Assembly (NCBI RefSeq): GCF_947301925.1
Contig: NZ_CAMYUE010000001.1
Span: forward strand, 434,001-498,000
Source of the DNA: an uncultured Ruminococcus sp.
GTDB taxonomy: Bacteria > Bacillota > Clostridia > Oscillospirales > Ruminococcaceae
DNA length: 64,000 bases
Direction: 5' to 3'
The translations under genes and the position numbers were made by a program. The notes beneath the pieces are model-generated. The model saw nothing but the letters and a program-made list of their open reading frames with translations. It had not been told where the DNA came from and did not search any database. Positions 20,951 through 38,911 of the stretch are shown here, piece by piece (positions within the stretch are counted from its first letter, which is position 1; each line of letters starts with the position of its first letter).

Positions 20951-23008
20951 TTAATTCTTTTTTATGAATTCTTCCATTGACATCGGAGTTTCTTTTGTAG
21001 TCGATACATATGCGTAGTATGAAAGAATATTGGAAGCGTCAACAGCGTTTATATCACCGTCATGGTTTACATCTGCTGCTGTCTTCTGATCTTCGTCATA
21101 TCCGCCGTCCTGATTTGTTGAAGTCATTGCATAATATGAAAGTACTGATGAGGCATCTACTGCATTTATTTCTCCGTCTTTGTTTACATCTCCGAGGGTG
21201 TAGGTCACTGGTTTTACCGGTGCTGTGGTGGTCGAGGTCGAAGTAGTGGTCGTGGTTGATGTAGTAGTTGTTGAAGTCACTGAACCTGATACTGATGTTG
21301 TTGATGTAACAGCAGGAACATCTATTATCAGTTCTCCGTCATTATTTACTGAAATGGTGCCGTTTGATTTTATATAATGCAGATATCGTTTCAATGTTGA
21401 AGCGCTTATGTACTCGCCGAGACCATTCGTAAGCAGACCCGATGCTTCGGCATAAACACTTACATCAGCACCTGTTATGGCGCCGGTAATATTTACCGGC
21501 TTCCCTTTTGGTACGTAAATACCGCCTTTATCGCCCTTAATGCAGATATTGCCGCTTAGATTTACCGTACCATTTTTCAAGCACTTTAAACCATAGTCTT
21601 TTTCACTTATTATCTTACCGCCTGATATATTCACTATGCAGTCCGAAGGAGAACCGCTGACAGCTGCTCCAATGTCTGAGTGCATCTCTCCGTCTGTTAT
21701 ATTGAGAGTACCGGCAAATGTATCAGCAAGCCATACTGAATATACGTTGGTTTTTCCGTTTTCAGCAGAGGAAGCCTTCAATACTCCGCCCATGATGTTT
21801 ATTATGCCGTCTTTGGTCCTTACAGAAAGAGCATGACTGTAGTATCCGATGATCTCGCCGCCGTAATAATCAAAACTACCATCATTGATCCTTACTGTTG
21901 CGCAGACCGTCTTCTTATCATAGCCATAAAAGTTGCCGCCATAGATGGTCAGTTTATTATATGATGTTATAAGGTTGCTGTCTGCTGTGCAAATGATCTT
22001 ACCTTTTTTCTGCTGATCACTGTCCCTGATTATAACATTGCTTGTGCTGTTGCATATTATCTCAGGGATCTTTACTGTATGGCCGTTCAGGTCAAGATCA
22101 AGTTTTCCGCTTATGGTTATATAGCTTTTAACGTCTACATCGCATTCAAGCTTATAAACACCTGCAACAGGCAGACTGTCAGTTCTTTTCCAAGCTCTTT
22201 CTTCACTTTCAATGAAATCCAGCCCATTCTTCTTTGCGAAAGTCTCCGCAGCTGAATCCTTAAAACCGTAAATAGTGTCTATTTTGCTGTCCCTGAGAGC
22301 ATTTCCGTTTATCATGGTAACTCCCGAAGGGATAAACAGCGAAGTAAACGTTGTACCCGAAAATGCATCATTCTGTATCGCAGTTACTGAATCAGGAATA
22401 TCAACTTCCTTAAGTTTTACACAATCTTTGAAAGCATTGCTGTATATCACTGTTAAAGACTGTGGAAGATCCACAGATTCAAGTTTCTTACACCCCATAA
22501 ACAAACTGTTTGTATCCAGTGTTACTACTGATTCCGGAATAACTACTGACTTGACAGCTGTACCGCTGAAAGCATACTGTCCGATACTTGTTACCGAATC
22601 AGGAATGATGATGCTTGTAAGTGAAGTACAGTTTTCAAATACATACTCGCCTATACCGGTAAGTGATTCAGGCAATTCTATTGACTGAATGTCATGGCAC
22701 GATGAAAAAGCATAATTACCTATATGAGTTATTCCTTCCTCAATTATGACTTTTTTAATCGGAGCAATATTGGCAAAAGGGTTCTTTCCATCCGCATAAT
22801 CGGATATAGCACCATTTCCGCTGATAGTCAGATTTCCTGCATCGTCAAGGGAATACGTCGCACTATCGCCGCAAGTTCCTGTGTTCACTGATGTATCTTC
22901 AGCTTCAGCCGCCAAAGTTTCAGTTCTTTCATAAGAATTAAAGTTAGAAACAGAGCAAGTAATAACAAGCGCACTAAGCATGGTTGAGAGTATTCTTTTT
23001 GAAATCAT
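20951..23008 (-). CDS. Secreted BspA-type LRR protein with C-terminal dockerin
   Basis: 685 residues from the ATG at 23006-23008 behind AGGAGG. A signal peptide comes first (MISKRILSTMLSALVITCS). Then LRR_5 repeats at about 70-270 with the IPDSVTSIGQYAF pattern; a region of short beta-helix-like repeats at about 290-570 with many ING, ISG and TVKI strands; a Thr/Ser linker; and a type I dockerin with two Ca-binding repeats (GDVNKDGEINAVDAS and ADVNHDGDINAVDAS). It is exported and should dock to a cohesin on a scaffoldin. The beta-helix part may bind or cut polysaccharide, but no catalytic residues are evident. Confidence 0.9.
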   Translation of the reverse strand: MISKRILSTMLSALVITCSVSNFNSYERTETLAAEAEDTSVNTGTCGDSATYSLDDAGNLTISGNGAISDYADGKNPFANIAPIKKVIIEEGITHIGNYAFSSCHDIQSIELPESLTGIGEYVFENCTSLTSIIIPDSVTSIGQYAFSGTAVKSVVIPESVVTLDTNSLFMGCKKLESVDLPQSLTVIYSNAFKDCVKLKEVDIPDSVTAIQNDAFSGTTFTSLFIPSGVTMINGNALRDSKIDTIYGFKDSAAETFAKKNGLDFIESEERAWKRTDSLPVAGVYKLECDVDVKSYITISGKLDLDLNGHTVKIPEIICNSTSNVIIRDSDQQKKGKIICTADSNLITSYNKLTIYGGNFYGYDKKTVCATVRINDGSFDYYGGEIIGYYSHALSVRTKDGIINIMGGVLKASSAENGKTNVYSVWLADTFAGTLNITDGEMHSDIGAAVSGSPSDCIVNISGGKIISEKDYGLKCLKNGTVNLSGNICIKGDKGGIYVPKGKPVNITGAITGADVSVYAEASGLLTNGLGEYISASTLKRYLHYIKSNGTISVNNDGELIIDVPAVTSTTSVSGSVTSTTTTSTTTTTSTSTTTAPVKPVTYTLGDVNKDGEINAVDASSVLSYYAMTSTNQDGGYDEDQKTAADVNHDGDINAVDASNILSYYAYVSTTKETPMSMEEFIKKN

Positions 23009-23147
23009 AATAAGGTTCCTCCTGTAAGAAAAGCTTTGTTTGTCATTATTTGTGCCAATAGTCACTTATGACTGTTGCTTTCGGTACAGCCAGTGTTGTG
23101 ACTCCTTAATTGTAGCATAATTAACTATATTAGTCAAGACAAAAGCT

Positions 23148-23172
23148 AAGCCGCCCCTGAGGGCGGCTCTTT
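23148..23172 (-). terminator. Terminator after the frameshifted exported-protein gene
   Basis: GCCGCCC...GGGCGGC hairpin just beyond the stop at 23177, with a T-rich stretch after it on the minus strand. Confidence 0.65.
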
Positions 23173-23176
23173 CATG

Positions 23177-24606
23177 TCACTGTGCGTTCTTGTAGGCCAG
23201 TGTTGCCTTGTAGTATTCGTAAAGTGCTCCCATTGCACAGGTCTCCGTTCTGTCTAAGGGATCAACGAGACAATCATAAACATAGGAGAGCACGGATGCG
23301 GTATAGGTGGAGGTGCCGTGATCTGTCGTTACAGTTATGGTATGGGGTTTATCGAGGAGATGTGCGGAGATGCCGCTTGCCGTCACCTGATATCTGTTGT
23401 TGCCGATACTCTTTGGAGTTACCTTCTTGCCGTCCAGCTTCACCTCAAATTTTCCGTTGTAACCATCTTTCTTCGTGAACTTGAAGTTGATAGCGGTGTT
23501 AGAATCGAGGACGAGGGAATAGTTCACCTTTTCGATGTCGGGGTTAGTCTCCCATACCTTCTGAACTTTCATATCTTCGAGTTCGCTGATGTATGCGGTC
23601 TTATTGATCAAATATCTTGCTACCATCTTGAAGCTCTTCTCCATGGCCTTGTGGTCAACGTCGAGAGTCAATTGTTGGCGCTGTGGCTGCTGAGATACTG
23701 CTGCATATAGTAGCCGTAATCGTTGATGCCCATGATGAGGTTCCAGAGCGGTTCTTCATCGCTCTCGTCGAACTTTTTAAGATAGGTCTCGCAGTTGGAT
23801 GTGGTGGTTATGGTCTGCTCGCTGCCGTTATTGTCGTAGTAGTGGAGGGTGGCCTTTACATCATCGGCCATGGATATGGAATTGAGGGCACAGTTGAAGC
23901 CATAATCGCCGGCTTTGTTGGTCTTCTTTGAATTGAACTTTGCCTTCTGCTTCTTGCCGTTGACCTCAAACTCAACGTATGACTTGTTGAGTTTATCTGC
24001 GGGAACGCCGGAAAGATCAGCATAGAAGTTAAGGCTGATAGCGCCGCCGAGCGTCATGGAGTTGGTGGTGAATTCAGGGAGCTTTACCAACTCTTTATAG
24101 TAGATCGTCACCGCACTGGCAGAGAAGTACGTATCACCGGTGCAGCCTGTCAGCGTCACAGAACTGTCATTTATGTCTGTGAATGTAAAAACATTACCAT
24201 TTATTTCAGACAGTGTTCCCTTTGATATAGTAGGTACACTATTATAATTGTAGCGTATAACATCGATATGGTCTATTATTTTATCATCTAAGGCAGAGAT
24301 GGTAGCAGTCATTTTATCATTATAATTATTCAAGAAAAAACAACCGTCCCTCGTATAATCAACTTCTAAGACAAAATACTCTCCAAATTGTTGCCAATCC
24401 GGGTAGTATTCCTCTGATACCATACCATCTTCATCATAGGAAAACGTACTATGCGGCATTGTGATCGTTTCTGAACCTTTGTTATAATAACTTGCAGCCT
24501 GTGCGCTCATGATCAGATCTGATTCACCGGGTTTCACAGGAACCGCACCGCCTACCAGCGCAAAAGCAAGTAACACTGCCGCTGTCTTCTTTAAAATACC
24601 TTTCAT
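23177..24606 (-). pseudogene. Exported protein with a frameshift at ~23669
   Basis: The 5' part (24606 down to 23668) starts MKGILKKTAAVLLAFALVGG, a clear signal peptide. It carries a beta-sandwich-like segment (LGGAISLNFYADLSGVPAD) and ends SSHSANN-stop. The 3' part (from about 23671 to 23177) continues at once in the next frame as TLDVDHKAMEKSFKMV and has a second, similar beta domain (LDSNTAINFKFTKKDGYNG). It has no ribosome binding site and would need a TTG start inside the upstream stop. A single missing base at AATTGACTC explains both. Predicted intact product about 475 residues. No catalytic motifs; function unknown. The 24607-24828 spacer is AT-rich with nothing coding. Confidence 0.75.
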
Positions 24607-24828
24607 TGAAAAACCTCCCTTTTTCTGCATGACAAAATGCGCATCTCACAGGACAGACCTATCCCGCGAAATGCGCTGCTTTAACGTATGAAATTTCAGA
24701 GAGGGCGCAGAAAATCTTTTTCTATATATATATTAACTAAATATACTGCTGCTGCTATTTTTCTGTCCTCCCGCAATATAAGCTAAAAACTTTATACCAC
24801 AGCTGACAGGAATTGTCAAGTTATGCCC

Positions 24829-26454
24829 TTATCCCGCCTTGAATATGAACCTGATGAAGTTATACATCATCGGTATGACGGTGCTGCTGTCGTGGCCGCC
24901 GCCCGGTACTGAGAGATAGATATTATCCGTGCCGTGCTGGGTGAAGAGGTCGCTGTACTGCTTCGGGAAATCGTTTACCATGCCGTCGTTCGTTCCGCCT
25001 GCTATGAGAAGCAGATAGGGTGAATAGGGCGGATCTATACGCATATCGTCCTTGCTCATAACGCCCGGATGATCCATGAACTGATCCTTGGTGGGGAAAA
25101 TGCCCGGTGCAGGTGCGCCGCCGCCGATATAGCCCACCTTGTCACAGCACTTAATGCCGATATAGAGGGATTCCCTGCCGCCCATGGAGAAGCCTGCAAC
25201 GGCGGTGTTCTCGCGGCCGGTCTTTACTGGGAAGTGGGATTCGATATAGGGCATTAGGCTGTCCGGCAGATCCTCAACGAAGTTGTCATAGCCGGGAACG
25301 TCAGCCTGACCGTTGCCTGTCTGCTTGGGGTGGTTCGGATCGGTGTACTGATCCGTGAAGACGATTATCATGGGTACGGCCTCCCCGCTGTTGATAAGGT
25401 TAGTGGCTATCTCAAGCACGCCCATGCCGTTCATCATGGTTCTCTCGTCGCCGCCGTAGCCGTGGTTCACGTAGAATACGGGGTATTTCTTGTTCTCGTC
25501 ATATCCCGGCGGCAGCCATACGTTAGCCCCCTTGTCCCGGCCTGCCTTAGTCGAATAGTAGGTTATATGCACTACATTTCCTCCCTGATCTTTCAGCACC
25601 TCAGCGGGCACATTGGCCGTTATCCGGTCGCGTATGCTGTCCATATAGCCCTCAGCGCTCACAGGTGGAGAGGTGGGCTTCTCAACCTGCTTGAACTCCT
25701 GCACCTGACCGAGGACGAAGCCGCTTATCTGCACAAGGTCGGCGACCGTCATCTCGTCGTCCCCGTTCACGTCTCCCGCCCTGAGGGCGTTTCCGGTAAG
25801 ACCGCCAATAACGCCCTTTCTTGCCAGCACAACATCGAAGGCTGTTACCTCCTCGTCAAAGTCGATATCCCCGGGGATTATCTTCACGGGGCTGAGGCCG
25901 TCGATCTGCGTTCCGGCCTCGGCTATTATGACCTCGTCGATGCTGAAAGCGGAGGTGCCGGATTCCGTCTCCACATAGAGGACATAGTCCGAGCCCTCCG
26001 GCAGCCGGAAGGAGGAGTTGGCAAGCTGTATGTAGTCCTCCGTTGAATCGCCCTCCGCGATGTGGCCGTATTTCGTATTTCCGGAGGTGTCCTTGTATTC
26101 AAGTGAGAGCATCATCTTACCCGTACCGGAGACCGCAGCGCTGAAGCTGTATTCACCGCCTGATGTGAAAACAGCAGAGTCCAGCTTCTTCTGTGCGCCG
26201 TGCCACGAACTTCCTCTGTCCGTGACTCTCAGCGCACTGCTGCCCGCATAGGCCGTGCCGCCCGATGATACTGAGGCGCCGCCTCTCCCCTCCCAATCGT
26301 CAGTGCCGCTCTCAAAGGTGTCGTGGCAGTAGTACCCCGCCGCCGCCGTTTCCTGTCCTGACGTGCCGCCCGGCAGGGTAAGGGATGCGGAAAAGGCCGA
26401 AGCTCCTGCGAGAAGGCCAGCAAGCACAGTCCTGACTGTTCTTATCCTGCTCAT
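24829..26454 (-). CDS. Secreted CBM-dockerin-CE1-type esterase
   Basis: 541 residues from the ATG at 26452-26454 behind AAAGGAGG. A signal peptide (about 1-35) is followed by a carbohydrate-binding-like beta-sandwich (about 40-180, containing TFESGTDDWEGRGG). A dockerin sits unusually in the middle (about 195-255: GDIDFDEEVTAFDVV and GDVNGDDEMTVADLV). Last is an alpha/beta hydrolase of the esterase D / CE1 type: HGYGGDERT, nucleophile GFSMGG, acid in GTNDG and His in GGGHDSS. It probably removes acetyl or feruloyl groups from xylan as part of a cellulosome. Substrate not determinable from sequence. Confidence 0.9.
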   Translation of the reverse strand: MSRIRTVRTVLAGLLAGASAFSASLTLPGGTSGQETAAAGYYCHDTFESGTDDWEGRGGASVSSGGTAYAGSSALRVTDRGSSWHGAQKKLDSAVFTSGGEYSFSAAVSGTGKMMLSLEYKDTSGNTKYGHIAEGDSTEDYIQLANSSFRLPEGSDYVLYVETESGTSAFSIDEVIIAEAGTQIDGLSPVKIIPGDIDFDEEVTAFDVVLARKGVIGGLTGNALRAGDVNGDDEMTVADLVQISGFVLGQVQEFKQVEKPTSPPVSAEGYMDSIRDRITANVPAEVLKDQGGNVVHITYYSTKAGRDKGANVWLPPGYDENKKYPVFYVNHGYGGDERTMMNGMGVLEIATNLINSGEAVPMIIVFTDQYTDPNHPKQTGNGQADVPGYDNFVEDLPDSLMPYIESHFPVKTGRENTAVAGFSMGGRESLYIGIKCCDKVGYIGGGAPAPGIFPTKDQFMDHPGVMSKDDMRIDPPYSPYLLLIAGGTNDGMVNDFPKQYSDLFTQHGTDNIYLSVPGGGHDSSTVIPMMYNFIRFIFKAG

Positions 26455-26584
26455 ATCTGTTCCTCCTTTGATAATTATAATACAGTATCCCATTTTATAT
26501 ATTATATAACATCTGAGCGGCCATGTAAACCCACTTTCTTACGGTTACGGTGTATAATAAAAAGATTTCCCCGAAGATAATGAG

Positions 26585-27323: not shown

Positions 27324-28340
27324 TTAATCGTCACAGCGATAATATACAAATGCTTTTTCATCAAAATCGTATGCGGAATAGAATGTCCTGCCATCTTTTG
27401 TATAGCTGTACACATAATGCTCGCCGGCACCGCCTATAGCTATTGTCGCCTGATCATTTAAATTCCCTTTAGCGGGCGGACTACAGCAGTACCTGAAGTT
27501 TTTTCTTATAAAATCAAAAAATTCCTTCGTACCGATCCAGTGATCGTTTTTACCGTACTGTTTTATATCTTCTTCATCCAGTGAAAGTATCTTTGGATGG
27601 CTCGGAACATATATATCGCTGCATACGGATGCAAGAATAATCCTTAATCGCGGCAGCTGAGAAATATAATCCAGTTTTGTACGGTAATTCGGTACGGAAG
27701 TGATTACGTCAGGCTTTATATATTCTGTAACGGTATGTATGTCATTCTCGAAGATATGCCATTCCTTTTCCGTATCGCCGTTGAAAAGCGCCACAAGGTC
27801 TATATTGACATATATGCCGTATTTATGAAATTCATCTACTATATGCTTCAGCTTGTCCGGTGAAACATACAGCCGTCTCTGTCCCTTGCATGCGTCGGCG
27901 TCAAGACTCTGCACGCCGAGACTTGCTATTTTCAGATGAAGATTTTCAGCGTAGAATTCTATGCGCCGGTCATCAAGATCATAAGGATGCATTTCTGATT
28001 TTACCGACTCTATCGAATCATAGCCAGGTATCCTGCTGATAATTTCCGACAATTCCTGTTCCGTCCAGAGACTTGGCGTACCTCCGCCGAAATAGACTGA
28101 TTTTAACGGCTTCATCTGCATTATTTCTTTAAACAAATCCAGTTGCTCGAATACGGCGTTTGCATATTCTTCTCTGTGTTCAAGAAGTTCCTTGTAAGGA
28201 AGAGAGTGATATATGCAGTAAAGGCAGTTTGATCTGCAGAACGGCAAATCAATGTATAAGCACAGATTATCGTTTTCTGCCAGCGATTCTTTGAAGCATC
28301 CGATCATTTCTTCAGGTTCGATAATAGTTACGTTCGGCAT
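27324..28340 (-). CDS. HemN-like radical SAM protein, divergent from the peptide-maturation locus
   Basis: 338 residues from ATG 28338-28340 (another ATG lies at 28358; neither has a strong site). Radical SAM signature FCRSNCLYC (C-x3-C-x2-C), SAM-binding VYFGGGTPSL, and a late IAIGGAGEHY segment as in the HemN/HemW family. The HemN C-terminal domain seems reduced, so haem synthesis is not a safe call. It has its own promoter (-10 complement of 28445-28450, -35 complement of 28468-28473, spacer 17) back to back with that of the precursor-like gene. It may act on the same peptide or be an unrelated neighbour. Confidence 0.75.
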   Translation of the reverse strand: MPNVTIIEPEEMIGCFKESLAENDNLCLYIDLPFCRSNCLYCIYHSLPYKELLEHREEYANAVFEQLDLFKEIMQMKPLKSVYFGGGTPSLWTEQELSEIISRIPGYDSIESVKSEMHPYDLDDRRIEFYAENLHLKIASLGVQSLDADACKGQRRLYVSPDKLKHIVDEFHKYGIYVNIDLVALFNGDTEKEWHIFENDIHTVTEYIKPDVITSVPNYRTKLDYISQLPRLRIILASVCSDIYVPSHPKILSLDEEDIKQYGKNDHWIGTKEFFDFIRKNFRYCCSPPAKGNLNDQATIAIGGAGEHYVYSYTKDGRTFYSAYDFDEKAFVYYRCDD

Positions 28341-28557
28341 GGTATCACATTCTTTCATATAAAATAGCGGAAATATCATTATTGTTTGAGAAGGCTGTAA
28401 CGGATATGCTTTCGGCCTTGCCTATGCTTTATTCATATAACTACATTATACAATAAGCTTGAATAAAATTCAAGGGTAATTTCATTTTTTATGGTTTTAT
28501 ATTTTCATCGGCATCAAAATATTTTTTGATTTTCTGCCGCATTTTTTACACAAATGC

Positions 28558-28586
28558 TTGACAAAGAATATAAATTTTGTTATATT
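28558..28586 (+). promoter_or_regulatory. Promoter of the precursor/maturase operon
   Basis: TTGACA (28558-28563), 17-nt spacer, TATATT (28581-28586), leaving a leader of about 65 nt before the start codon. Confidence 0.7.
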
Positions 28587-28655
28587 TGTTTTATAAGCTT
28601 TGCTTATTCGTATCAATACACATTTTAAATCAATTATCATTCAGGAGGTATCACA

Positions 28656-29129
28656 ATGGACGAAAAAGATAAGAAGATCACCGCAGAAACTGCCCAGAAA
28701 ACTTCGGAAGAACTTAAAAAAGCAATTTCATCCGCAAAGGCATCGGGAAAACGTACGGTAGGCACAGCTAAAAGGAATCCGTCGATAAGGGTGAGTGGCC
28801 CCGGCAGAAAAGGCTCGTTAGGTAGTAGATTATCAGTAGTTGCTGATTCTCATTCGGATCATCCACATCATGATGTTTATACCGACCGGCATCAGGACGC
28901 TCCGCATATGGATGTTCCTCTTCCCGATAAGACAAGCGGAGGATATGAGCTGTCTGATGAGATCGTAAAAAAACTAAAGGGCAAATCTGTTATAGGTATC
29001 AAGAAAAAGCTGACCAAAGCTCAGGTAGTAAAGCTTGCTGCTTTAGAGGTCACTGTTAAGGAGAATTACCTCATAGTTCCGGTGGAGAACGCTTTATATG
29101 TAAAAGACCTTTTAGGTATCAAGGAATAG
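28656..29129 (+). CDS. Candidate RiPP precursor: cysteine-free protein with two H-x-D-x-P-H-x-D-V repeats
   Basis: 157 residues, ATG behind CAGGAGG. The N-terminal 60 residues are Lys/Ser/Ala-rich and basic. Residues 66-74 (HSDHPHHDV) and 79-87 (HQDAPHMDV) are two copies of H-x-D-x-P-H-x-D-V, 13 residues apart, each followed shortly by Asp. A compact C-terminal part (about 95-157) with GIKKKLTKAQVVKLAALEV could be a recognition or follower domain. There is no cysteine, signal peptide or membrane segment. The radical SAM/SPASM enzyme gene starts 79 bases downstream, across a hairpin. I infer that the repeat region is the modified core. A metal-binding protein is the alternative. Confidence 0.6.
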   Translation: MDEKDKKITAETAQKTSEELKKAISSAKASGKRTVGTAKRNPSIRVSGPGRKGSLGSRLSVVADSHSDHPHHDVYTDRHQDAPHMDVPLPDKTSGGYELSDEIVKKLKGKSVIGIKKKLTKAQVVKLAALEVTVKENYLIVPVENALYVKDLLGIKE

Positions 29130-29142
29130 TAGTTATTAACGG

Positions 29143-29180
29143 ATAATCGTACGCTCTTGTATGCAAGTGCGTACGATTAT
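29143..29180 (+). terminator. Attenuator hairpin between precursor and maturase
   Basis: Twelve paired bases (ATAATCGTACGC with its complement, 29143-29154 / 29169-29180) continue inward as CTTG/CAAG after one mismatch, then TTGAATTTT. Such a leaky hairpin would give more precursor than enzyme. Confidence 0.6.
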
Positions 29181-29208
29181 TTGAATTTTCAAGTATCGGA
29201 GTAATGAA

Positions 29209-31329
29209 ATGCTTACAGAATCAATCAAAAGAGAATTCGTTCCCGTAGGAGATGACCTTATAGTTCTTGATCCGGAAACGGGTGCGTGGCTTTGTGTCAA
29301 TAAAGAATGCCGCAGCATAATAGAATATATTTCACAGGCTTCCGACATCAGCGATGTTTACGATAAGTTTCCCGGAATTGCTCCTTATGAGATAGCCGGG
29401 CTGCTGCATATGCTGAAAGCAAGCGAGGAGCGTTCTGCCGAGACAAAGGAGGCAGCCGAATTTGAAAAATGCAGGAAATTTGCGCCTACTCTCTGTATAC
29501 TGAAGCTGACCGAAGCATGCAATCTCAGGTGTTCTTACTGCTATATCGACGCAGGCGGCAGGCATAACAGAATGATGAGCAGGGAAACAGGACTTCTGAC
29601 CGTAAAAAAATTCCTTGATATGCATTCCGAGGACGGGCTTAACTCAAGCATAGCCTTCCACGGCGGGGAGCCGCTGCTGAATTTTGAACTTATGCGCGAG
29701 ATCACCGGATACCTTGAACCTTTCCGCGATAAGGCGTCTTTGACAGTCCAGACCAACGCCACGCTGATAACCGACGAGATAGCAAAATTCCTTAAGGATA
29801 ACAATATATCAACGGGTATAAGCTTCGACGGTCCGAAGAATATGCATGATATCACCCGCAGGTTCCCTAACGGAGAAAGCTCATTTGATCTTGTGATAAA
29901 GGGCATAGAAACACTTAGAAAATATGATATACATTTTGACGTCATCTGTGTGCTGAACAGGTTCAATGCGGCTCATATAGGAGAATTATTTGACTTCTTT
30001 GTCAGCAATCATATCGAGACCTTCTGCTTGTCTCCTGTACAGCCTAACGGAAGGGGTAAGAATGAGGACGGGATATGGCTAACGGGAGACGTTCTCTTTG
30101 ATGCCTACAAGATCCTTCTTGACAGGATAATTGAGCATAATTCCTCACATTCCGGTGATGAGCGCATTTATGACAGAACGCTGACGTATCTCATTCACAT
30201 AATCTATTCAAATGAAAGAGATTATATGTGTATGAGAGGTCCGTGCGGTTCAGCCATCAATATACTAAGCTTCACCGTTGACGGAGATATTTACGGCTGC
30301 GATAATTTCATAGGCCATGAGGAGTTCCGGATAGGCTCAGTATATAACGGAGACATAATGGAACAGGTATTGAACAGTCCTGCAAGAGCCGGCTCGATGA
30401 GCCGTTCAATGAATGAGCTCAAGCGGTGCAGGAACTGTATCTGGCGCGGCCTGTGCGGCGGAGTATGCTATTCGGCAGACTACTGCTCCGGGGCAAATGG
30501 AGAAGAAGAAACCGAAATGTGCGTATTCTATAAAAAAATGATACCATACCTTATAAAAAAGATCAGCGATGATCCCGAGATACCGTATCTTCTTGACAAA
30601 CATCTGAAAAAGATAAGATACCGCAAGTATTATGTGGATATCGATAAAGACCCTGACGATATGATCGACACTGAAACTCTTGAAGCGATAATGAAGATAC
30701 ATGAAGCAGATAAGAATACCATGGTCTGCCTTTGCGTGAGAGATCTTGATAATTGTAAAGAGCTGACGGAGATGTTAGGGAAAATAAAGGAAAACGGTGC
30801 TGTTCCCGCAATTATGACCGTAAGCCCGCCGGAAGAGAACGCGGACCTGTACAGGAAGATTCTTGAACTTGGTACCATGCGCATTTATTTTGCGGTAGAT
30901 GAAGATATAAGCGTCCTTGAAACTGCCGGGCAGTTTGCCGATGTCAGGAAAACCTTCAGCGAATCAAATACAGCATTCGGAATAAGAATATCAGTCTCTT
31001 CCTTATATGATGATGAAAATCTAATTAAAAGGATAAGGGATATAATGGGAGAGAATGACGTTATAGAGCTTCTGAACGACGTGGGTGAAGATTATAGAAT
31101 ATTCAACTGCATTCTTGACAGGATACGTGCAGAGGGTATGGAAAGCCGTGTGATCCTTCCAAAGATCGACAAGGAAAAGCTGAGCATTGATAACTGTGTC
31201 TTCCTTATCTATCAGAACGATGATGAATTCTATCATATTCATGTAGATGCGGATTGTTTTACAGGAAAACTGCTTTCCGGAGCTTCCGATTATTGTTTCG
31301 GCAAGCATCAGCCGATTTCTGCAATATAA
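29209..31329 (+). CDS. Radical SAM/SPASM peptide maturase with PqqD-like domain and long C-terminal extension
   Basis: 706 residues. Residues 5-75 resemble a PqqD/RRE peptide-binding domain (VPVGDDLIVLDPETGAWLCV). The radical SAM core has C104-x3-C108-x2-C111 (EACNLRCSYCYI), AFHGGEPLLN and QTNATLIT. The SPASM domain spans about 345-435 with CGSAINIL, YGCDNF and CRNCIWRGLCGGVC, enough Cys for auxiliary 4Fe-4S clusters. About 270 further residues (435-706) follow, with alternating strands and helices. They have no second CxxxCxxC and match nothing I recognise. Enzymes of this type install C-C, C-S or C-O links or epimerise residues in ribosomal peptides. With a Cys-free substrate a thioether is ruled out. 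Confidence 0.85.
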   Translation: MLTESIKREFVPVGDDLIVLDPETGAWLCVNKECRSIIEYISQASDISDVYDKFPGIAPYEIAGLLHMLKASEERSAETKEAAEFEKCRKFAPTLCILKLTEACNLRCSYCYIDAGGRHNRMMSRETGLLTVKKFLDMHSEDGLNSSIAFHGGEPLLNFELMREITGYLEPFRDKASLTVQTNATLITDEIAKFLKDNNISTGISFDGPKNMHDITRRFPNGESSFDLVIKGIETLRKYDIHFDVICVLNRFNAAHIGELFDFFVSNHIETFCLSPVQPNGRGKNEDGIWLTGDVLFDAYKILLDRIIEHNSSHSGDERIYDRTLTYLIHIIYSNERDYMCMRGPCGSAINILSFTVDGDIYGCDNFIGHEEFRIGSVYNGDIMEQVLNSPARAGSMSRSMNELKRCRNCIWRGLCGGVCYSADYCSGANGEEETEMCVFYKKMIPYLIKKISDDPEIPYLLDKHLKKIRYRKYYVDIDKDPDDMIDTETLEAIMKIHEADKNTMVCLCVRDLDNCKELTEMLGKIKENGAVPAIMTVSPPEENADLYRKILELGTMRIYFAVDEDISVLETAGQFADVRKTFSESNTAFGIRISVSSLYDDENLIKRIRDIMGENDVIELLNDVGEDYRIFNCILDRIRAEGMESRVILPKIDKEKLSIDNCVFLIYQNDDEFYHIHVDADCFTGKLLSGASDYCFGKHQPISAI

Positions 31330-31555: not shown

Positions 31556-31607
31556 GTAATGTAAGGAGCTTGGGGGCTCCTAATATATGACAGGAGGAAA
31601 AAACACT

Positions 31608-33284
31608 ATGAACACAAAGAACCGGATCAAAGCATTTCTCACAGCAGCAGTAATGGCTGCGGCACCATTGGCTATGAATATCCCATCTGCTTCGGCTGAA
31701 GATTACATAGTCGAGAACGGACAGGTGCTCACACTATTCGGTGACGTAAACTTCGACGGAAGTGTAGGTATTTCCGATGCTGTACAGCTCAAGCGCTATC
31801 TGCTCGGACAGATAGATGAGCTCGGCAACGTTAAGAACGCCGATCTTCTTGCTGACGGAGTTATCGACGCCTTCGACATGGTATACCTCAGAAAACAGCT
31901 GGTAGGGGCTAAAAAACCGGCAGGAACAAAGCTCGGCGTCAAGGTTGTTGATATGATGACAGGCGAGACCCTTGAGAACGCAGAAATCAGCCTCAACGAG
32001 ATGAACGGCAATATCCTGTATCCTATCGGAGACAAGATCTCCACATACGGCGAGGATATCAATTATTACGGACTTCCCGATGATAAGGATTATCAGTATT
32101 TCATCACTGTAGAGGGACTCCCGGAGGGCTACAGCGAAAGCTACAAAAAGTGGGATCATGTAGTTACATTAACTGTTCCCGCTGGCACAGAAGAAAAAGA
32201 TATTGTCATCAGAGTTTGCGCTGACAACGCTGTCAACAATGTAAAGATCACTCAGATGGACTGGTGCCAGGGTAAAGAGTATGTAGGCTACGGCAATTTC
32301 AATGTTACTGACACCGAAGGAAATTATTACTATCAGAGAAATTACTGGGGCGAAATGGCTTTGCCCGACGGCGATTATCACGCTGATTTCAATCTCTTCG
32401 GCGAGTCTGTTGCATTCATCGATCAGAGCGGCGATTTCGCCGAAATGATAAAGGGATACTATCCCGACGCCGATATCAAGGACTGCTCGCAGGGCATTGA
32501 TTTCTCTGTTGTAAACGGCAAGCCCGACAGAGACCTGTTCATCGATCTCGGTCCTGTAGATGGTATGTCCAACTCTATCAATGTGAATTGCTTTGACAGT
32601 TCTACAGGTCTGCCTCTGGAAGGCGTTGAGCTTTCCCTTGTTGAAGCTTCCGACAGCTACGCAAAAACTGTAAGCTGGACTTCCGACGGCACTACAAAGG
32701 TATTTGATGATCTCTACCGCACAGGTCAATATGCATATGACATCCATGTGGACAAGGTCCCTGAAGGCTATACTGCCGTAAGGACCGAAGACTGGGCATA
32801 CTTCCCGTATGTACGCAATTTTTCAACTGATATAAATTTCTATTTCAGCCCTGTTGAGGGAGAGAAGGACCTTTCCTTCAGCGTTATGACATGGCCTGAT
32901 AAGCAGCCCTACACAGGCGACACTACATTCAGCATCTTAAATGCCGACAAAATGGACAATATGGTGCTTTCAGGCATAAAGTCCGGGGAGAAGTTCGCTC
33001 TCAAGGACGGAGATTACTTAATCACAGCCAATAAGTATGACGACGCTGATCCCTACTGCGGAATCTCAGTCTGGTCTGAGCTCGGAGAAGAACTGGCGGC
33101 TGAGGAGCCCGGTTTATTCGATAAGGTATTCAGATCTGATATGGCTATGTTCACTGTAAAGAACGGCAAGATCGAAAAAGACATCGTTCTTTATGTAGGC
33201 GAAAAGGACAAGGCTATGGCTCAGTACGAAAAGGATCTCATTTCCGGTGAAGAAGAGATCCCCGAGGAAAAAGAAGAATCATAA
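31608..33284 (+). CDS. Secreted protein with N-terminal dockerin and Cna-B/SpaA-like domains
   Basis: 558 residues from the ATG at 31608, behind AGGAGG. A signal peptide (about 1-31) leads straight into a dockerin (about 44-100: FGDVNFDGSVGISDAVQLKRYL, second repeat ADLLADGVIDAFDMV). After that come several beta-sandwich modules with the pattern KVVDMMTGETLENAEISL and SINVNCFDSSTGLPLEGVELSL, as in Cna-B/prealbumin-like surface proteins, and an acidic tail. A dockerin at the N-terminus is uncommon. It has its own promoter and is separated from the maturase by a terminator, so a link to the peptide locus is not implied. No enzymatic motif seen. Confidence 0.8.
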   Translation: MNTKNRIKAFLTAAVMAAAPLAMNIPSASAEDYIVENGQVLTLFGDVNFDGSVGISDAVQLKRYLLGQIDELGNVKNADLLADGVIDAFDMVYLRKQLVGAKKPAGTKLGVKVVDMMTGETLENAEISLNEMNGNILYPIGDKISTYGEDINYYGLPDDKDYQYFITVEGLPEGYSESYKKWDHVVTLTVPAGTEEKDIVIRVCADNAVNNVKITQMDWCQGKEYVGYGNFNVTDTEGNYYYQRNYWGEMALPDGDYHADFNLFGESVAFIDQSGDFAEMIKGYYPDADIKDCSQGIDFSVVNGKPDRDLFIDLGPVDGMSNSINVNCFDSSTGLPLEGVELSLVEASDSYAKTVSWTSDGTTKVFDDLYRTGQYAYDIHVDKVPEGYTAVRTEDWAYFPYVRNFSTDINFYFSPVEGEKDLSFSVMTWPDKQPYTGDTTFSILNADKMDNMVLSGIKSGEKFALKDGDYLITANKYDDADPYCGISVWSELGEELAAEEPGLFDKVFRSDMAMFTVKNGKIEKDIVLYVGEKDKAMAQYEKDLISGEEEIPEEKEES

Positions 33285-33325: not shown

Positions 33326-35677
33326 TTATTTCTGATACTTTGCCCTGTCCATCTCACGGATAGCTGCACGGCGGATCTTTCCGCTTCCTACGGTCTTAGG
33401 CAGCTCGGAAACGAACTCCACCACTCTCGGATACTTGTAAGGCGCGGTACGCTCCTTGACATAGTCCTTTATCTCCTTTACGAGCTCATCAGAGCCGCTC
33501 TTATCCTTTGTAAGAACGATAGTAGCCTTTACTACCTGTCCTCTTATCTCATCGGGAACGCCTGTTACAGCACATTCAAGTACATAGGGAAGCTCCATGA
33601 GAACACTTTCGATCTCAAAAGGTCCGATACGGTAGCCTGATGACTTGATAACGTCATCGACACGGCCGACATACCAGAAATAGCCGTCCTCGTCCACCCA
33701 TGCGGTATCGCCTGTGTGATAGAAGCCGTCCCGCCATGTCTCGGATGTATTCTCTTCATCGCCGAAATAACACAGAGCCAGTCCGGGAACGCCGTAGCCG
33801 TTAGCTTTGCTGTCTCTGAGCTTTATACATATCTCTCCGGTTTCGCCCACGCTTGCGGGAGTACCGTCGGGAAGAAGCACCTGAACGTCATACTGCGGAT
33901 TGGGCTTGCCCATACTGCCCGGCTTGGGCTCCATACCCACAACATTTGCAATAGAGAGTGTGGTCTCGGTCTGACCGAAGCCCTCCATGAGCTTGATACC
34001 TGTAGCGCGGTAGAACTGGTGGAAAACCTCGGGATTGAGAGCTTCACCTGCGATACAAGCGTATTTAAGCGATGAAAGGTCGTACTTTGAAAGATCTTCC
34101 TTGATGAAGAAGCGGTACATGGTGGGAGGAGCACAGAATGAAGTGATATTGTACTTTCTGAACATGGGGAGGATATCATCTGCGTGGAAACGGTCGAAGT
34201 CATATACGAACACAGCCGCCTCGCACATCCACTGGCCGTAGAGCTTGCCCCAGAGCGCCTTGCCCCAGCCTGTATCGGAAATAGTGAAGTGCAGACCGTT
34301 GGGATCGGCGTTCTGCCAGTAACGTGCGGTTACATAATGTCCCAGGGGGTACTGATAGCTGTGGAGAACCAGCTTGGGATTGCCCGATGTGCCCGAGCTG
34401 AAGAAGATCAGCATTGGATCGGTGCCGCAGGGAGTCTCGGCAGTACGCTCAAAATGAGTACTGTATGCAGTGAGCTCCTCATTGAAATCATGCCAGCCCT
34501 CACGCTGACCGTTCACCATTATCTTTGTTCTGAGCGAAGGTGAAACTGCGGCAGCCTTATCCACCTCATCTGCGACGTCGCCGTCAGCAGTACAAACGAT
34601 AGCGGATACATTGGCGGAGTTGAAGCGGTACTCCAGATCATGCTCCTTCAGCATATTGGACGCAGGTATTGCCAGAGCACCGATACGGTGAAGTGCGATT
34701 ATAGAGAACCAGAACTGATAGTGGCGCTTGAGTATCAGCATGACGCGATCGCCCTTCCTGATGCCAAGAGACTTGAAATAGTTGGCCGTCTGGCAGGAAT
34801 ACTTCTTGATATCCCTGAATGTGAAGCGGCGCTCGTTCTTGTTTACGTCAACGTAGATCATTGCCGTCTTATCGGGACATTTCTCTGCCATTGCGTCAAC
34901 GATATCATATGCGAAATTGAACCTGTCCTGATTTACAAAATCCACCTTGCTGAGGATACCCTCCTCATTGGTCTCGCAACGAACGAATTTCTCCGAGACA
35001 GGATGAAGCAGACCTGCCTTGTCGACATTTGTCAGGTAATGCTCTGCGATATGCTCGCGGAATTCGGTCATTCCGGTAGTTCCGCGGGGAGCCATAACAA
35101 AGGCATATATCTCGCAGTCCTCGCCGCCGAGAGCAACCTCGTCATGAGGCATTGAGCTGTCATAGTAGATACAGTCGCCCTCATGGAGTATCTCTGTATG
35201 AGAGCCGACGGTCATACGCACTGTTCCCTTGATAACGATATCCATTTCCTGGCCTGCATGGCTTGCCATATGCAGAGGCTGCGAAAGCGCTTCCTCGGAA
35301 TAAGGGATAACAACATGGAAGGGCTCCACGATCTTATTCTTGAATTTGGAAGCAAGTCGGTTATATGCAAACCCCTTTCTGCGGGCAATAGGAACTCCCT
35401 CGCCCTTGCGGGTGATAGTATATCCGCTGAGCTCCGGGCTGCTGCCCTCCATAAGGTCGGTGATATCAACATTAAAGGTGTTTGCGCACTTGTAGATAAA
35501 TGTAAAGCTGAAATCCTTTTCGCCGGATTCATATTTTTTGTAGTCCTCAACCGAATATCCGGTATTTGCAGCCATTTCCTCAACAGAAATACCGAGATCC
35601 TCGCGAAGATGCGAGATACGCTCTGCGACCTCTCTGATCTTTACTTCTGCATTCTGTAAATTTGTCATTTCGCTCAT
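33326..35677 (-). CDS. XRE-cupin regulator fused to an acyl-CoA synthetase
   Basis: 783 residues. An XRE helix-turn-helix (about 18-75: LGISVEEMAANTGYSVEDYKKYESG) and a cupin (about 110-200: GQEMDIVIKGTVRMTVGS, GDCIYYDSSMPHD) form the layout of a stand-alone XRE-cupin repressor. Fused behind it is a complete AMP-binding acyl-CoA synthetase of the acetyl/medium-chain type: FFSSGTSGNPK P-loop, GFGQTETT, YHTGDTAWVDEDG and the catalytic lysine in GSGKIRR. It should activate a carboxylic acid to its CoA thioester through an acyl-AMP. The cupin may sense the acid or product. A T-box leader controls it, which suggests a role tied to amino acid supply, for example re-use of branched or aryl acids. 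Substrate not shown by sequence. Confidence 0.88.
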   Translation of the reverse strand: MSEMTNLQNAEVKIREVAERISHLREDLGISVEEMAANTGYSVEDYKKYESGEKDFSFTFIYKCANTFNVDITDLMEGSSPELSGYTITRKGEGVPIARRKGFAYNRLASKFKNKIVEPFHVVIPYSEEALSQPLHMASHAGQEMDIVIKGTVRMTVGSHTEILHEGDCIYYDSSMPHDEVALGGEDCEIYAFVMAPRGTTGMTEFREHIAEHYLTNVDKAGLLHPVSEKFVRCETNEEGILSKVDFVNQDRFNFAYDIVDAMAEKCPDKTAMIYVDVNKNERRFTFRDIKKYSCQTANYFKSLGIRKGDRVMLILKRHYQFWFSIIALHRIGALAIPASNMLKEHDLEYRFNSANVSAIVCTADGDVADEVDKAAAVSPSLRTKIMVNGQREGWHDFNEELTAYSTHFERTAETPCGTDPMLIFFSSGTSGNPKLVLHSYQYPLGHYVTARYWQNADPNGLHFTISDTGWGKALWGKLYGQWMCEAAVFVYDFDRFHADDILPMFRKYNITSFCAPPTMYRFFIKEDLSKYDLSSLKYACIAGEALNPEVFHQFYRATGIKLMEGFGQTETTLSIANVVGMEPKPGSMGKPNPQYDVQVLLPDGTPASVGETGEICIKLRDSKANGYGVPGLALCYFGDEENTSETWRDGFYHTGDTAWVDEDGYFWYVGRVDDVIKSSGYRIGPFEIESVLMELPYVLECAVTGVPDEIRGQVVKATIVLTKDKSGSDELVKEIKDYVKERTAPYKYPRVVEFVSELPKTVGSGKIRRAAIREMDRAKYQK

Positions 35678-36111: not shown

Positions 36112-36738
36112 TCACTGTTTTCTTACGGCTCTGCGGCAGAAGAAGCCTGCTGCAACAAGTACAGCCGCCATCCCGAGAAGCCACCGCTTTTCCTCAAAGC
36201 TGCCCGACATCATCGAGAACAGGTAGAATCTGTCCAGCTTGTCCTTCATGGCGAAATTGCAGAGGTAGTACATTATAGCTGTCATATAGCCGACTATGGT
36301 ATTATCGCTGACAGCCGATGCAAAAAAGCCAATTGAGCCGAGCGCAAGGGAGGTCGCAACGGATCCGCGGAAAAGCCTTGCTGTTACTGCCGAGTCCTGA
36401 AACCTCATATAAACCACGAAGACAGCGGTTATCGCTGTAAGGATCACAGCGGAACATATAAGCCTTATAAAGCATACTCCCAGATATGATGTCTTTTTTG
36501 AGCGTACAACATCTCTGATGTTTTCATTCTGTTCGGGCATGAATACCGGCGTCATCAGTATTATCCCCATCAGGGGAAGCATTATCTCAAGAGGCTGCGC
36601 CGCAAGTTTTTCGTCAAGCTCCGACAATCCGAACATAAAGGCGGTTATAATTGCAAGTCCCACAGCCGCCAGATAATGAAGCAGAAAGTTATGCCTTGCG
36701 TCTGAGCAGACCACCTTGGCCAAACAGCCTGATAGCAT
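36112..36738 (-). CDS. ABC transporter membrane protein (small subunit)
   Basis: 208 residues with about six hydrophobic helices (for example YLAAVGLAIITAFMFGL and ICSAVILTAITAVFVVYM). It overlaps the end of the larger permease gene by 50 bases and has a GGGGAGG site of its own. Together with the next two genes it makes an ABC-2-type transporter. Substrate unknown. Confidence 0.7.
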   Translation of the reverse strand: MLSGCLAKVVCSDARHNFLLHYLAAVGLAIITAFMFGLSELDEKLAAQPLEIMLPLMGIILMTPVFMPEQNENIRDVVRSKKTSYLGVCFIRLICSAVILTAITAVFVVYMRFQDSAVTARLFRGSVATSLALGSIGFFASAVSDNTIVGYMTAIMYYLCNFAMKDKLDRFYLFSMMSGSFEEKRWLLGMAAVLVAAGFFCRRAVRKQ

Positions 36739-37936
36739 TGAATTTTCCTCCCCTCTTCAGCTCATATACAAGGACTGTCAGAACTGCGGCAACTATTGCA
36801 GCTGCCAGATAGAACAGCCTGTTGAATACGAAATTATCTCTCGAAAGCAGGAACGACGTTCTCTGATAAAGCGTATTATGACGGCATACCAGAGTGAATT
36901 TGCCTATACGTCCTTCAAGTACCATCCCGCTGCTTAGCACATCATAGAACCACCAGGCAAACTGCACGATAATAGCCGTTCCCCCCGAAAACATCTCTGT
37001 TATGAGCATGCCTGCCGCTGTTACTATCATAAGCTCGGGAAGCAGCCAGAATACGGGCAGAGTGAACATCCCTGACAGGTTATAGTTCTCTCCGCTGTAA
37101 TTCTTCATGAGCTGCAAAGCTGCCGCCGTCATGGAAAGCAGTACAGGAATGAACATTGTTGTCACAAGTGCGGCATATCTTGTGAAAACCAACCTGAACG
37201 AGGATATCTTCCTTGTGTATACAAGTTCGCTGACCTTTCTGCGCCTGTCTGCCGATACGAGCGCAACGGCAACAAATACAGGCATAATGCCGATGACAAT
37301 TCCTATATAGTCACAAAAAAGTCGCGCATAGCTTCCTGATATCCTGTCCTTTTCAAAAAGCTCCTCATATTCTGCCTGAGCATCCTCATATGTCATAGGC
37401 ACCTGTGAAAAGTTATGCACAAGCCTATCCACTGCGTATTCCGAGCCTCCGCCGAGTATATCATCGATATCTCCCATTATCTCAGTAAATCTATCATATG
37501 TCATTGTCGTTGCAACAGGTATTTCAGGCACATCATACTCAACATTTTCACTCAATCCGCTCGACAGATAATACTTCTGACTGTTATTTTTCACATCCTC
37601 AAGGCCGTCTTTGTCAAGTCCGGTTATCTCCTTAATATAACCCTCGAGCGTCGTTCTGTCACTTTTTTTCAGGTGTACCATTTTGTAGAAACCAAGGGGA
37701 TAACATACATAACTGTTCCCCAGATAGTCGGAAATCAGCGAATTAACAGCCGATCCCATTATAAGGTCGTGATCTTCGGAAATCTTATATCCGTAGTCCC
37801 CATTTTTTACGGGAGGATATTCTCTTTCATTACAATCGGAAAAATACTGAGTTATAAAAAACAGAACAACTATAAAGCAGTATATGATATATGTCAGCGA
37901 GCGGATAATCTTCCTGCATTCCTTTCCGAACAGCAT
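36689..37936 (-). CDS. ABC-2-type transporter permease
   Basis: 415 residues. One membrane helix near the N-terminus (LTYIIYCFIVVLFFITQYF) is followed by a large extracytoplasmic loop of about 160 residues, then five or six more helices in the C-terminal half. The arrangement resembles permeases of bacteriocin- or antibiotic-responsive ABC systems. Its start overlaps the ATPase stop (TAATG), so the genes are co-translated. Confidence 0.75.
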   Translation of the reverse strand: MLFGKECRKIIRSLTYIIYCFIVVLFFITQYFSDCNEREYPPVKNGDYGYKISEDHDLIMGSAVNSLISDYLGNSYVCYPLGFYKMVHLKKSDRTTLEGYIKEITGLDKDGLEDVKNNSQKYYLSSGLSENVEYDVPEIPVATTMTYDRFTEIMGDIDDILGGGSEYAVDRLVHNFSQVPMTYEDAQAEYEELFEKDRISGSYARLFCDYIGIVIGIMPVFVAVALVSADRRRKVSELVYTRKISSFRLVFTRYAALVTTMFIPVLLSMTAAALQLMKNYSGENYNLSGMFTLPVFWLLPELMIVTAAGMLITEMFSGGTAIIVQFAWWFYDVLSSGMVLEGRIGKFTLVCRHNTLYQRTSFLLSRDNFVFNRLFYLAAAIVAAVLTVLVYELKRGGKFNAIRLFGQGGLLRRKA

Positions 37937-38832
37937 TATTCCTCACCTCCCCTTACGTCACAGCCGCTGCTGTGGAGACAGTACATATACGCCGCCTCAA
38001 GATCGGGCTCCGCCAGCACCGCGTTTGGCAGATCGGGCTCGCTGTCGGAAACTATCCTTACAGTGGTATAGTCGTTCTGAGCAAGCATACCCGTAACTAT
38101 ATATTCCTTCTTTATCTGAGGCATGAAGCGCTTCTCTACATTTGCTGTATATATATGTCCCCGTGAGTTTTCAAGGAGCTGCGTCACAGTGCCGCGCCAG
38201 AGAACCCTTCCCTCGTCCATTATGGCTATCTGCTCGCAGGTAGCCTCTATGTCGCCGACAATATGTGTTGAAAGTATAACTATCCTCTCCTCGGCCACTT
38301 CACAGAGGAGATTGCGGAAGCGTATACGCTCCTCTGGATCAAGTCCTGCTGTCGGCTCGTCTACTATAAGCACCTGCGGATCGTGTATCAGAGCCTGTGC
38401 GATGCCAAGGCGGCGCTTCATGCCGCCTGAAAGCTCCTTGACCTTCTTGTGCCTGTGCTCTATAAGATTTACACGGCGCAGAAGCGAGGTGACCTTCTTT
38501 GCTCTTTCCGACTTTGGTATACCCGACAGAGCTCCCAGATAGTCCAGAGCTTCATCTGTCTTCATGGAAGGATACATTGAAAACTCCTGCGGAAGATAGC
38601 CGGTCATTGCTCTTATCTCCCTTGCCTTCTCTATAGGAACACCGCAAACGGTTATCTCGCCGCTTTTCTTGGTATGAAGTGCAGCAAGTGTTTTCATCAG
38701 CGTTGTCTTGCCTGCTCCGTTTCTTCCCAGCAAACCGAACATTCCCTGTCCGATCGTAAGGTTGATATCGAAAAGAGCCTGCTTGCGTCCGTAAAACTTG
38801 TTTACCTTTTTTATCTCGATCTTTTTCTCCAT
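37936..38832 (-). CDS. ABC transporter ATP-binding protein
   Basis: 298 residues from the ATG at 38830-38832 behind GGAGG. Walker A GRNGAGKTT, signature LSGGMKRRLGIAQAL, Walker B VLIVDEPTAGLD and switch His in STHIVGD are all intact. The last ~80 residues form a variable accessory part. It powers the two permeases encoded just downstream. The two-component genes immediately upstream in the same direction probably regulate the set. Confidence 0.88.
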   Translation of the reverse strand: MEKKIEIKKVNKFYGRKQALFDINLTIGQGMFGLLGRNGAGKTTLMKTLAALHTKKSGEITVCGVPIEKAREIRAMTGYLPQEFSMYPSMKTDEALDYLGALSGIPKSERAKKVTSLLRRVNLIEHRHKKVKELSGGMKRRLGIAQALIHDPQVLIVDEPTAGLDPEERIRFRNLLCEVAEERIVILSTHIVGDIEATCEQIAIMDEGRVLWRGTVTQLLENSRGHIYTANVEKRFMPQIKKEYIVTGMLAQNDYTTVRIVSDSEPDLPNAVLAEPDLEAAYMYCLHSSGCDVRGGEE

Positions 38833-38911
38833 TTTATCGCCTCCAAAAATAATGACATGGAAGATGTATTCTCTTACCATGTCATTATAATAATCTATGA
38901 ATTTCAACTTT

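Follow-up and report, generated by a model that had tools for sequence, protein, structure and literature searches.

In the triceptides, as presented in the available part of a review of these systems (PMC11002830), SPASM enzymes join a ring carbon of an aromatic residue at position i to the beta-carbon of the residue at i+2. The pairings given there are Tyr C3 to Asp C-beta (YxdB), Trp C7 to the C-beta of Asn or Asp (OscB), His C2 to Ala (HaaB), and both Tyr C3 and His C2 to Arg (YhhB, which accepts both aromatics). The same part of the review describes enzymes of the darobactin and dynobactin type, which form C-O and C-N bonds. Precursors with Aro-Xaa-Asn and H(Y)NR repeats appear in the available part of a second source (PMC9062424), which also mentions the His-Xaa-Ser system.

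The locus considered here lies within a stretch of 64,000 nt (G000:C1:434001-498000, the whole of which will be called the window), taken from the 3.49 Mb genome of an uncultured Ruminococcus sp. It is a unit of two genes on the same strand, a precursor gene followed by the gene of a radical SAM/SPASM enzyme (Table 1). Judged from the sequences and by analogy with the described systems, it is probably a RiPP cassette of the triceptide type, in which ring-to-C-beta cyclophanes would be formed at His/Tyr/Trp-x-Asp motifs. The first-pass annotation of this DNA did not recognise the class, a statement that was too strong, since the pattern is that of the triceptides as the available part of PMC11002830 presents them.

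Table 1. Features of the cassette, in window coordinates. Residue numbers refer to the protein concerned.
Feature	Position	Strand	Description and basis
Promoter-like site	28558..28586	+	TTGACA-17-TATATT, TG ahead of second hexamer; site scan
Ribosome-binding site of precursor gene	28643..28648	+	AGGAGG; read in sequence
Precursor gene	28656..29129	+	157 aa: leader, internal aromatic-x-Asp core, conserved C-terminal domain; ORF and relatives
Core	28851..28913	+	residues 66-86, five aromatic-x-Asp motifs (HSD HP HHD V YTD R HQD AP HMD); alignment, counts
Conserved C-terminal domain of precursor	28932..29126	+	residues 93-157 (65 aa), predicted beta-alpha-beta-beta-alpha; alignment
Intergenic hairpin	29140..29183	+	folding versus shuffles; hairpin also in sister genome
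Radical SAM/SPASM maturase gene	29209..31329	+	706 aa; ORF, Pfam, relative
Possible N-terminal RRE/PqqD-like domain	29233..29427	+	residues 9-73; model, pLDDT <55
Radical SAM domain	29491..30198	+	residues about 95-330, C104-x3-C108-x2-C111; Pfam, sequence
SPASM domain	30244..30522	+	C346, C364, C407, C410, C416, C420, C438; Pfam from DNA, alignment
C-terminal extension of maturase	30595..31326	+	residues 463-706 (roughly 245 aa), predicted beta/alpha, TIM-like at low confidence

Distribution and setting of the cassette

The small protein was found in two of 119 genomes near that of the window, the window's own included. A four-row precursor profile returned the identical two genomes from 125 of the genus (again including the own genome) and the own genome only from 394 drawn from the order. 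The second genome is that of Ruminococcus sp. RGIG6026 (G055), a MAG from sheep omasum, 74% complete. It carries three tandem precursor paralogues, p1 to p3 (130, 134 and 134 aa), followed by a hairpin and then by a 707-aa enzyme that is 69% identical to the enzyme of the window. All four homologous precursors of the two species lie directly upstream of the 706- or 707-aa enzyme, a linkage that supports the initial reading of a RiPP-like precursor with a SPASM maturase. Homologues spread widely apart from any radical SAM gene, the finding named at that stage as contrary to this reading, were not encountered: both of the genus genomes with a precursor have the enzyme.

In the window the cassette is surrounded by dockerin proteins, an AMP-binding enzyme and a radical SAM protein of the HemN-like kind; in RGIG6026 its neighbours are GGDEF, EAL and NUDIX proteins. 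Since the surroundings differ between the two genomes, the shared unit consists of the precursor(s) and the enzyme, as an accessory cassette.

Several of the window's neighbours may be described for their own sake. Dockerin-bearing proteins are encoded on both sides of the cassette (20951-26493 on the - strand and 31587-33284 on the + strand), variously with an LRR, an esterase and carbohydrate-binding domain, or a SpaA-like domain. Divergent from the cassette is the gene of the 351-aa HemN-like protein (27324-28379, - strand), which has a CxxxCxxC motif and meets no NCBIfam cut-off; HemN-type models match it, and HxsC is absent among the 24 matches listed. The other 124 genomes of the genus have no counterpart to it at E<=1e-30, nor do the 19 kb around the sister cassette contain a match. 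A 783-aa protein (33326-35677, - strand) fuses helix-turn-helix, cupin and AMP-binding domains. It has matches at E<=1e-150 in 118 of the 125 genus genomes, with many paralogues of about 63% identity, and so appears to be a commonplace gene in this genus whose domain order is unusual.

The promoter-like site ahead of the precursor gene is weak evidence when taken alone, the scan of the window having found nine such sites where 9.2 were expected from shuffles; in the sister genome an identical TTGACA-17-TATATT (L011 7459-7487) stands upstream of the second precursor. The sequence CAGGAGGTAT occurs upstream of all three sister precursors. Between the two genes of the window, where an attenuator had been proposed, there is indeed a strong hairpin: the intergenic stretch folds at -25.9 kcal/mol (z -4.7), and none of 200 shuffles was as stable. 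The hairpin of the sister genome, located between the last precursor and the enzyme gene, has a z of -3.2 (2/200 shuffles equally good). The window's hairpin matches no Rfam family at gathering score and is possibly an attenuator or an RNA-stabilising element.

The aromatic-x-Asp motif

The open reading frame confirms the first-pass description of a 157-residue protein without Cys. The two repeats reported there, HSDHPHHDV at 66-74 and HQDAPHMDV at 79-87, are present, but H-x-D-x-P-H-x-D-V is not the unit of repetition, which would leave out YTD at 75-77. What is kept across the four precursors is aromatic-x-Asp. The cores of the RGIG6026 proteins read WDD C HGD T YKD SP YKD (p1), HAD EPV HSD S HRD T HTD SP HID (p2) and HAD EPV HSD G HTD N HLD SP HTD (p3).

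Four motif positions can be aligned in all four precursors, with support that spans two species only. Asp occupies its place (D73, D77, D81 and D86 in the window) in 16 of 16 cases, and in as many an aromatic residue (His, Tyr or Trp) stands at -2; between the two, no aligned position has a residue common to all four precursors. There are 19 motifs in total within the four cores, p1 being without the first. Nearly all core aromatics have Asp at +2 (19/21; window 5/7, p1 4/4, p2 5/5, p3 5/5), the two off the pattern being His 69 and His 72 of the window, and offsets of 1, 3, 4 and 5 from aromatic to Asp occur zero times or once per core.

The motif and the limits of the core (27 residues for that of the window) were chosen after the sequences had been viewed, and the shuffle figures are descriptive: the observed number of motifs was reached by 218, 470, 4 and 11 of 200,000 shuffles of the core, and by 2, 50, 0 and 3 of 20,000 shuffles of the whole protein (window, p1, p2 and p3, respectively). 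Among the 353 stop-to-stop frames of at least 60 aa in the window, the precursor alone has five motifs per 25 residues; four frames have three, and the rest have at most two. In the RGIG6026 stretch (110 frames), more than two motifs per 25 residues are found in the three precursors only.

The duplicates p2 and p3 differ at five of 28 core residues, three of them at x, two in linkers and none at an aromatic residue or Asp. The proportions of non-synonymous and synonymous differences between the two, each based on few sites, are 0.106 and 0.113 in the core, which is near equality, 0.095 and 0.272 in the leader, and 0.060 and 0.112 in the C-terminal part.

A run of H-x-D brings to mind a metal-binding loop (Ni, Zn or Cu) of a small metal-handling protein, in which case the enzyme would act otherwise or mature a different site. 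The window core does contain six His and six Asp in its 27 residues, and UreE is the top fold row of the weak precursor model, at an E of 0.78, which is no match. Within the same cluster, though, the core of p1 (WDD HGD YKD YKD) has one His left, and the precursor (2/125) and the enzyme extension (2/119) occur in the same two genomes, so that I hold a metal loop to be very improbable. The exchange of His, Tyr and Trp, with Asp fixed at +2, agrees with a chemistry of the ring and the side chain of Asp, and only poorly with a metal site.

The same motif could serve a radical chemistry other than ring-to-beta-carbon bonding, either the modification of a single Asp or His (oxidation of the Asp beta-carbon, decarboxylation or epimerisation) or a C-N or C-O bond between ring and Asp. 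SPASM enzymes catalyse many reactions, among them the C-O and C-N bonds of the darobactin and dynobactin type (PMC11002830, available part), and DynA (166 of 450 bits) is one of the highest-scoring families for the window enzyme. A reaction at Asp alone would need no aromatic residue at a fixed -2, yet all 16 aligned motifs have one, and a bond limited to imidazole is made unlikely by Trp and Tyr in that position (WDD, YKD). I consider these other chemistries unlikely as a group. The first-pass annotation had kept open C-C and C-O cross-links, epimerisation and modification of His or Asp; the C-C cross-link is the option now favoured by the aromatic-x-Asp pattern.

Conserved parts of precursor and maturase

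The core of a RiPP usually lies at the C-terminus. Unlike that arrangement, the core here is internal and a conserved domain trails it, as was recognised in the window alone and as the relatives bear out. This domain is 44-55% identical in amino acid sequence between the two species. Its model has a pLDDT of about 73-83 over residues 111-157 and gave no fold match at E<=0.001. The domain may serve as a recognition or carrier part, or may be retained in the product.

The last of these possibilities leads to a system of protein modification, in which the 157-aa protein would remain uncleaved and function in the cell, its stapled loop lying between the leader and the folded C-terminal domain. Such a system would agree with the triceptide reading, from which it differs only in the fate of the protein after cross-linking. 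It would account for the conservation of the C-terminal domain and for a precursor in which no signal peptide is seen by eye. In agreement with the first description of the locus, moreover, no protease or exporter was recognised beside the cassette, either among the ORFs inspected by eye at both loci or by Pfam on seven flanking proteins (four of the window, three of the relative); about 5 kb further downstream, the opposite strand carries what were read by eye as an ABC-type ATPase and permease (36689-38907). The three tandem paralogues, with cores that vary at x and in the linkers, resemble rather a diversifying peptide product, and I regard an intact, intracellular protein as possible while leaning against it.

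Turning to the enzyme, the 706-aa open reading frame scores well above the cut-off for the Pfam Radical_SAM model (73.9 versus 29.5 bits). The SPASM model passes its cut-off of 21.5 when applied to the DNA (25) and falls just under it on the protein (19.6), and all seven SPASM cysteines listed in Table 1 are in place and conserved in the RGIG6026 enzyme. The assignment to the radical SAM/SPASM enzymes therefore stands. The PqqD-like domain that was claimed along with it fares less well: the order of three strands and three helices agrees with such a domain, in a model of low confidence, but no Pfam PqqD match was found at E<=1. Between the two enzymes, dN is 0.08-0.12 and dS 1.2-1.6 in the radical SAM and SPASM parts, values that indicate purifying selection on the enzyme.

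The C-terminal extension diverges faster, with 51% identity between the window and RGIG6026 as opposed to 79-88% in the catalytic part. As read in the sequence, it has neither CxxxCxxC nor HExxH. It does contain a C-L-C-x6-C motif (30727-30756), whose cysteines C507, C509 and C516 are kept in the relative despite the fast divergence. Because the extension and the C-terminal domain of the precursor are restricted to the same two genomes among those searched, one idea is that they may recognise each other.

Family placement

In the NCBIfam scans, neither enzyme met a cut-off among its best 25 rows (for the window enzyme, the best 25 of 82 matched families). CbpB (TIGR04163) gave the top score, 206 for the window enzyme and 190 for its relative against a cut-off of 375, and HxsB gave 174 and 175 against 370. 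Within the same best 25, the cut-offs of the cyclophane maturases were missed by the window enzyme: GrrM/OscB 130 of 310 bits, YhhB 112 of 445, AmcB 112 of 425 and FxsB 82 of 370. Controls exceeded their cut-offs, P0005 with 718.7 bits and P0004 with 59.4 bits for CbpB/CbpA, and HxsB, HxsC and HxsA3 of locus L050 with 523, 320 and 110 bits. The window precursor has no NCBIfam match at E<=1, nor have the three RGIG6026 precursors any at E<=1e-10.

Three specific memberships were considered and rejected. Against CbpB/CbpA stand the score of the enzyme and a precursor without a match to CbpA (TIGR04164). Against His-Xaa-Ser stand a third residue that is Asp, the HxsB score, and a neighbouring radical SAM protein (27324-28379) that is not HxsC on the 24 matches listed. 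Sactipeptides and ranthipeptides are disfavoured by the scores of PapB-family (169.5 of 340) and RumMC (103 of 720) models and by the scarcity of Cys. The window protein has none; p1, p2 and p3 each have one in the C-terminal domain, and p1 has a further one in its core. The conserved core positions are free of Cys, which upholds the earlier exclusion of Cys-based cross-links.

Among 297 genomes of the family (a draw in which RGIG6026 was not among the matches), the best match to the window enzyme after itself is an HxsB of 31% identity. It belongs to a locus (L050 6255-10770; G755, same family) where HxsC, HxsB and HxsA3 exceed their cut-offs and a MORN-like repeat protein, identified by eye, lies between, and it is near the HxsA3 protein, whose long run of H-x-S is a possible i/i+2 parallel to H-x-D. 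The own genome of the window encodes two 443-aa SPASM enzymes with identical scores (G000:C15:36111-36308 and G000:C24:19102-19299), from either a recent duplication or an assembly repeat.

Several points count against the triceptide reading: CbpB and HxsB score better than the known cyclophane enzymes, the structure models are of low confidence, the core is internal, p1 is short of one motif, two His in the core of the window protein lie off the pattern, the motif is supported by two species only, and neither a protease nor an exporter was recognised beside the cassette. On the evidence, the pair would act like a triceptide system yet belongs to no named maturase family tested.

Proposed chemistry

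From the i/i+2 pattern of triceptide SPASM enzymes, a ring-to-C-beta cyclophane is predicted at each aromatic-x-Asp. The N-terminus of the enzyme, possibly RRE-like, would hold the precursor while the enzyme proceeds along the internal core, abstracting hydrogen from the beta-carbon of Asp at each motif. That carbon would then be bonded to the aromatic ring two residues upstream, be it imidazole, phenol or indole. The product would be a row of three-residue cyclophanes, each lighter by 2.016 Da (-2.016 Da), up to five of them (-10.08 Da) on the window protein. The hairpin may raise the abundance of the precursor over that of the enzyme.

A bolder version of this scheme, which I find rather doubtful, is that one and the same enzyme, in its natural setting, links all three aromatics (His, Tyr and Trp) to Asp at i+2 within a core inside a folded protein. 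The product would be the whole protein, bearing as many as five cyclophanes with abundant imidazole and carboxylate groups, perhaps a metal or redox site, and a cluster-free, TIM-like domain of the enzyme would hold the C-terminal domain of the substrate.

If the triceptide reading is true, it adds to the ring-to-beta-carbon cross-links a His-Asp pairing, one not found in the available part of the triceptide review (PMC11002830). It would also suggest one enzyme that accepts three aromatic residues in natural substrates, in a two-gene system where the modified core is flanked by two conserved stretches of protein. What is predicted is sharply defined, -2.016 Da per motif at named residues.

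Comparison with known systems

A cyclophane enzyme with an extra domain, a fusion of radical SAM and alphaKG-HExxH, is reportedly the subject of work by Morishita in 2024, as its title has it. The extension described here differs from such fusions, known by title, in that it is without HExxH and is predicted to be beta/alpha. On a plasmid of Paracoccus yeei (L072 3608-6369), a radical SAM protein adjoins an annotated 'HEXXH motif-containing putative peptide modification protein'; the radical SAM protein ranks with the better matches that the window enzyme has on plasmids.

The likeness to CbpA/CbpB consists in the top NCBIfam score given above and in the 28% identity of Methylovirgula CbpB to the window enzyme over 458 columns. 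The Methylovirgula CbpB, however, is 479 aa long and without the extension, and its CbpA has 45 aa and no aromatic-x-Asp run. The His-Xaa-Ser system (HxsA/B/C) shares with the cassette repeats of His-x-polar within a sizeable protein. The cassette has Asp in place of Ser, an exchange with Tyr and Trp, and one radical SAM/SPASM enzyme instead of the pair HxsB and HxsC.

The triceptides are like the cassette in having a radical SAM/SPASM enzyme with i to i+2 aromatic motifs, and Tyr-Asp, Trp-Asp and a His partner have each been published (PMC11002830, available part). The cassette offers one i to i+2 aromatic unit per ring and a radical SAM/SPASM maturase that adjoins. It departs from the triceptides in the occurrence of Trp, His and Tyr in one precursor (p1) beside a single enzyme, and in other traits that are unusual here: the repeated His-x-Asp, the conserved 65-aa domain behind an internal core, and the long extension of the enzyme. 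As compared through its sequences, the cassette seems to be a new variation on a peptide-stapling chemistry that is already known.
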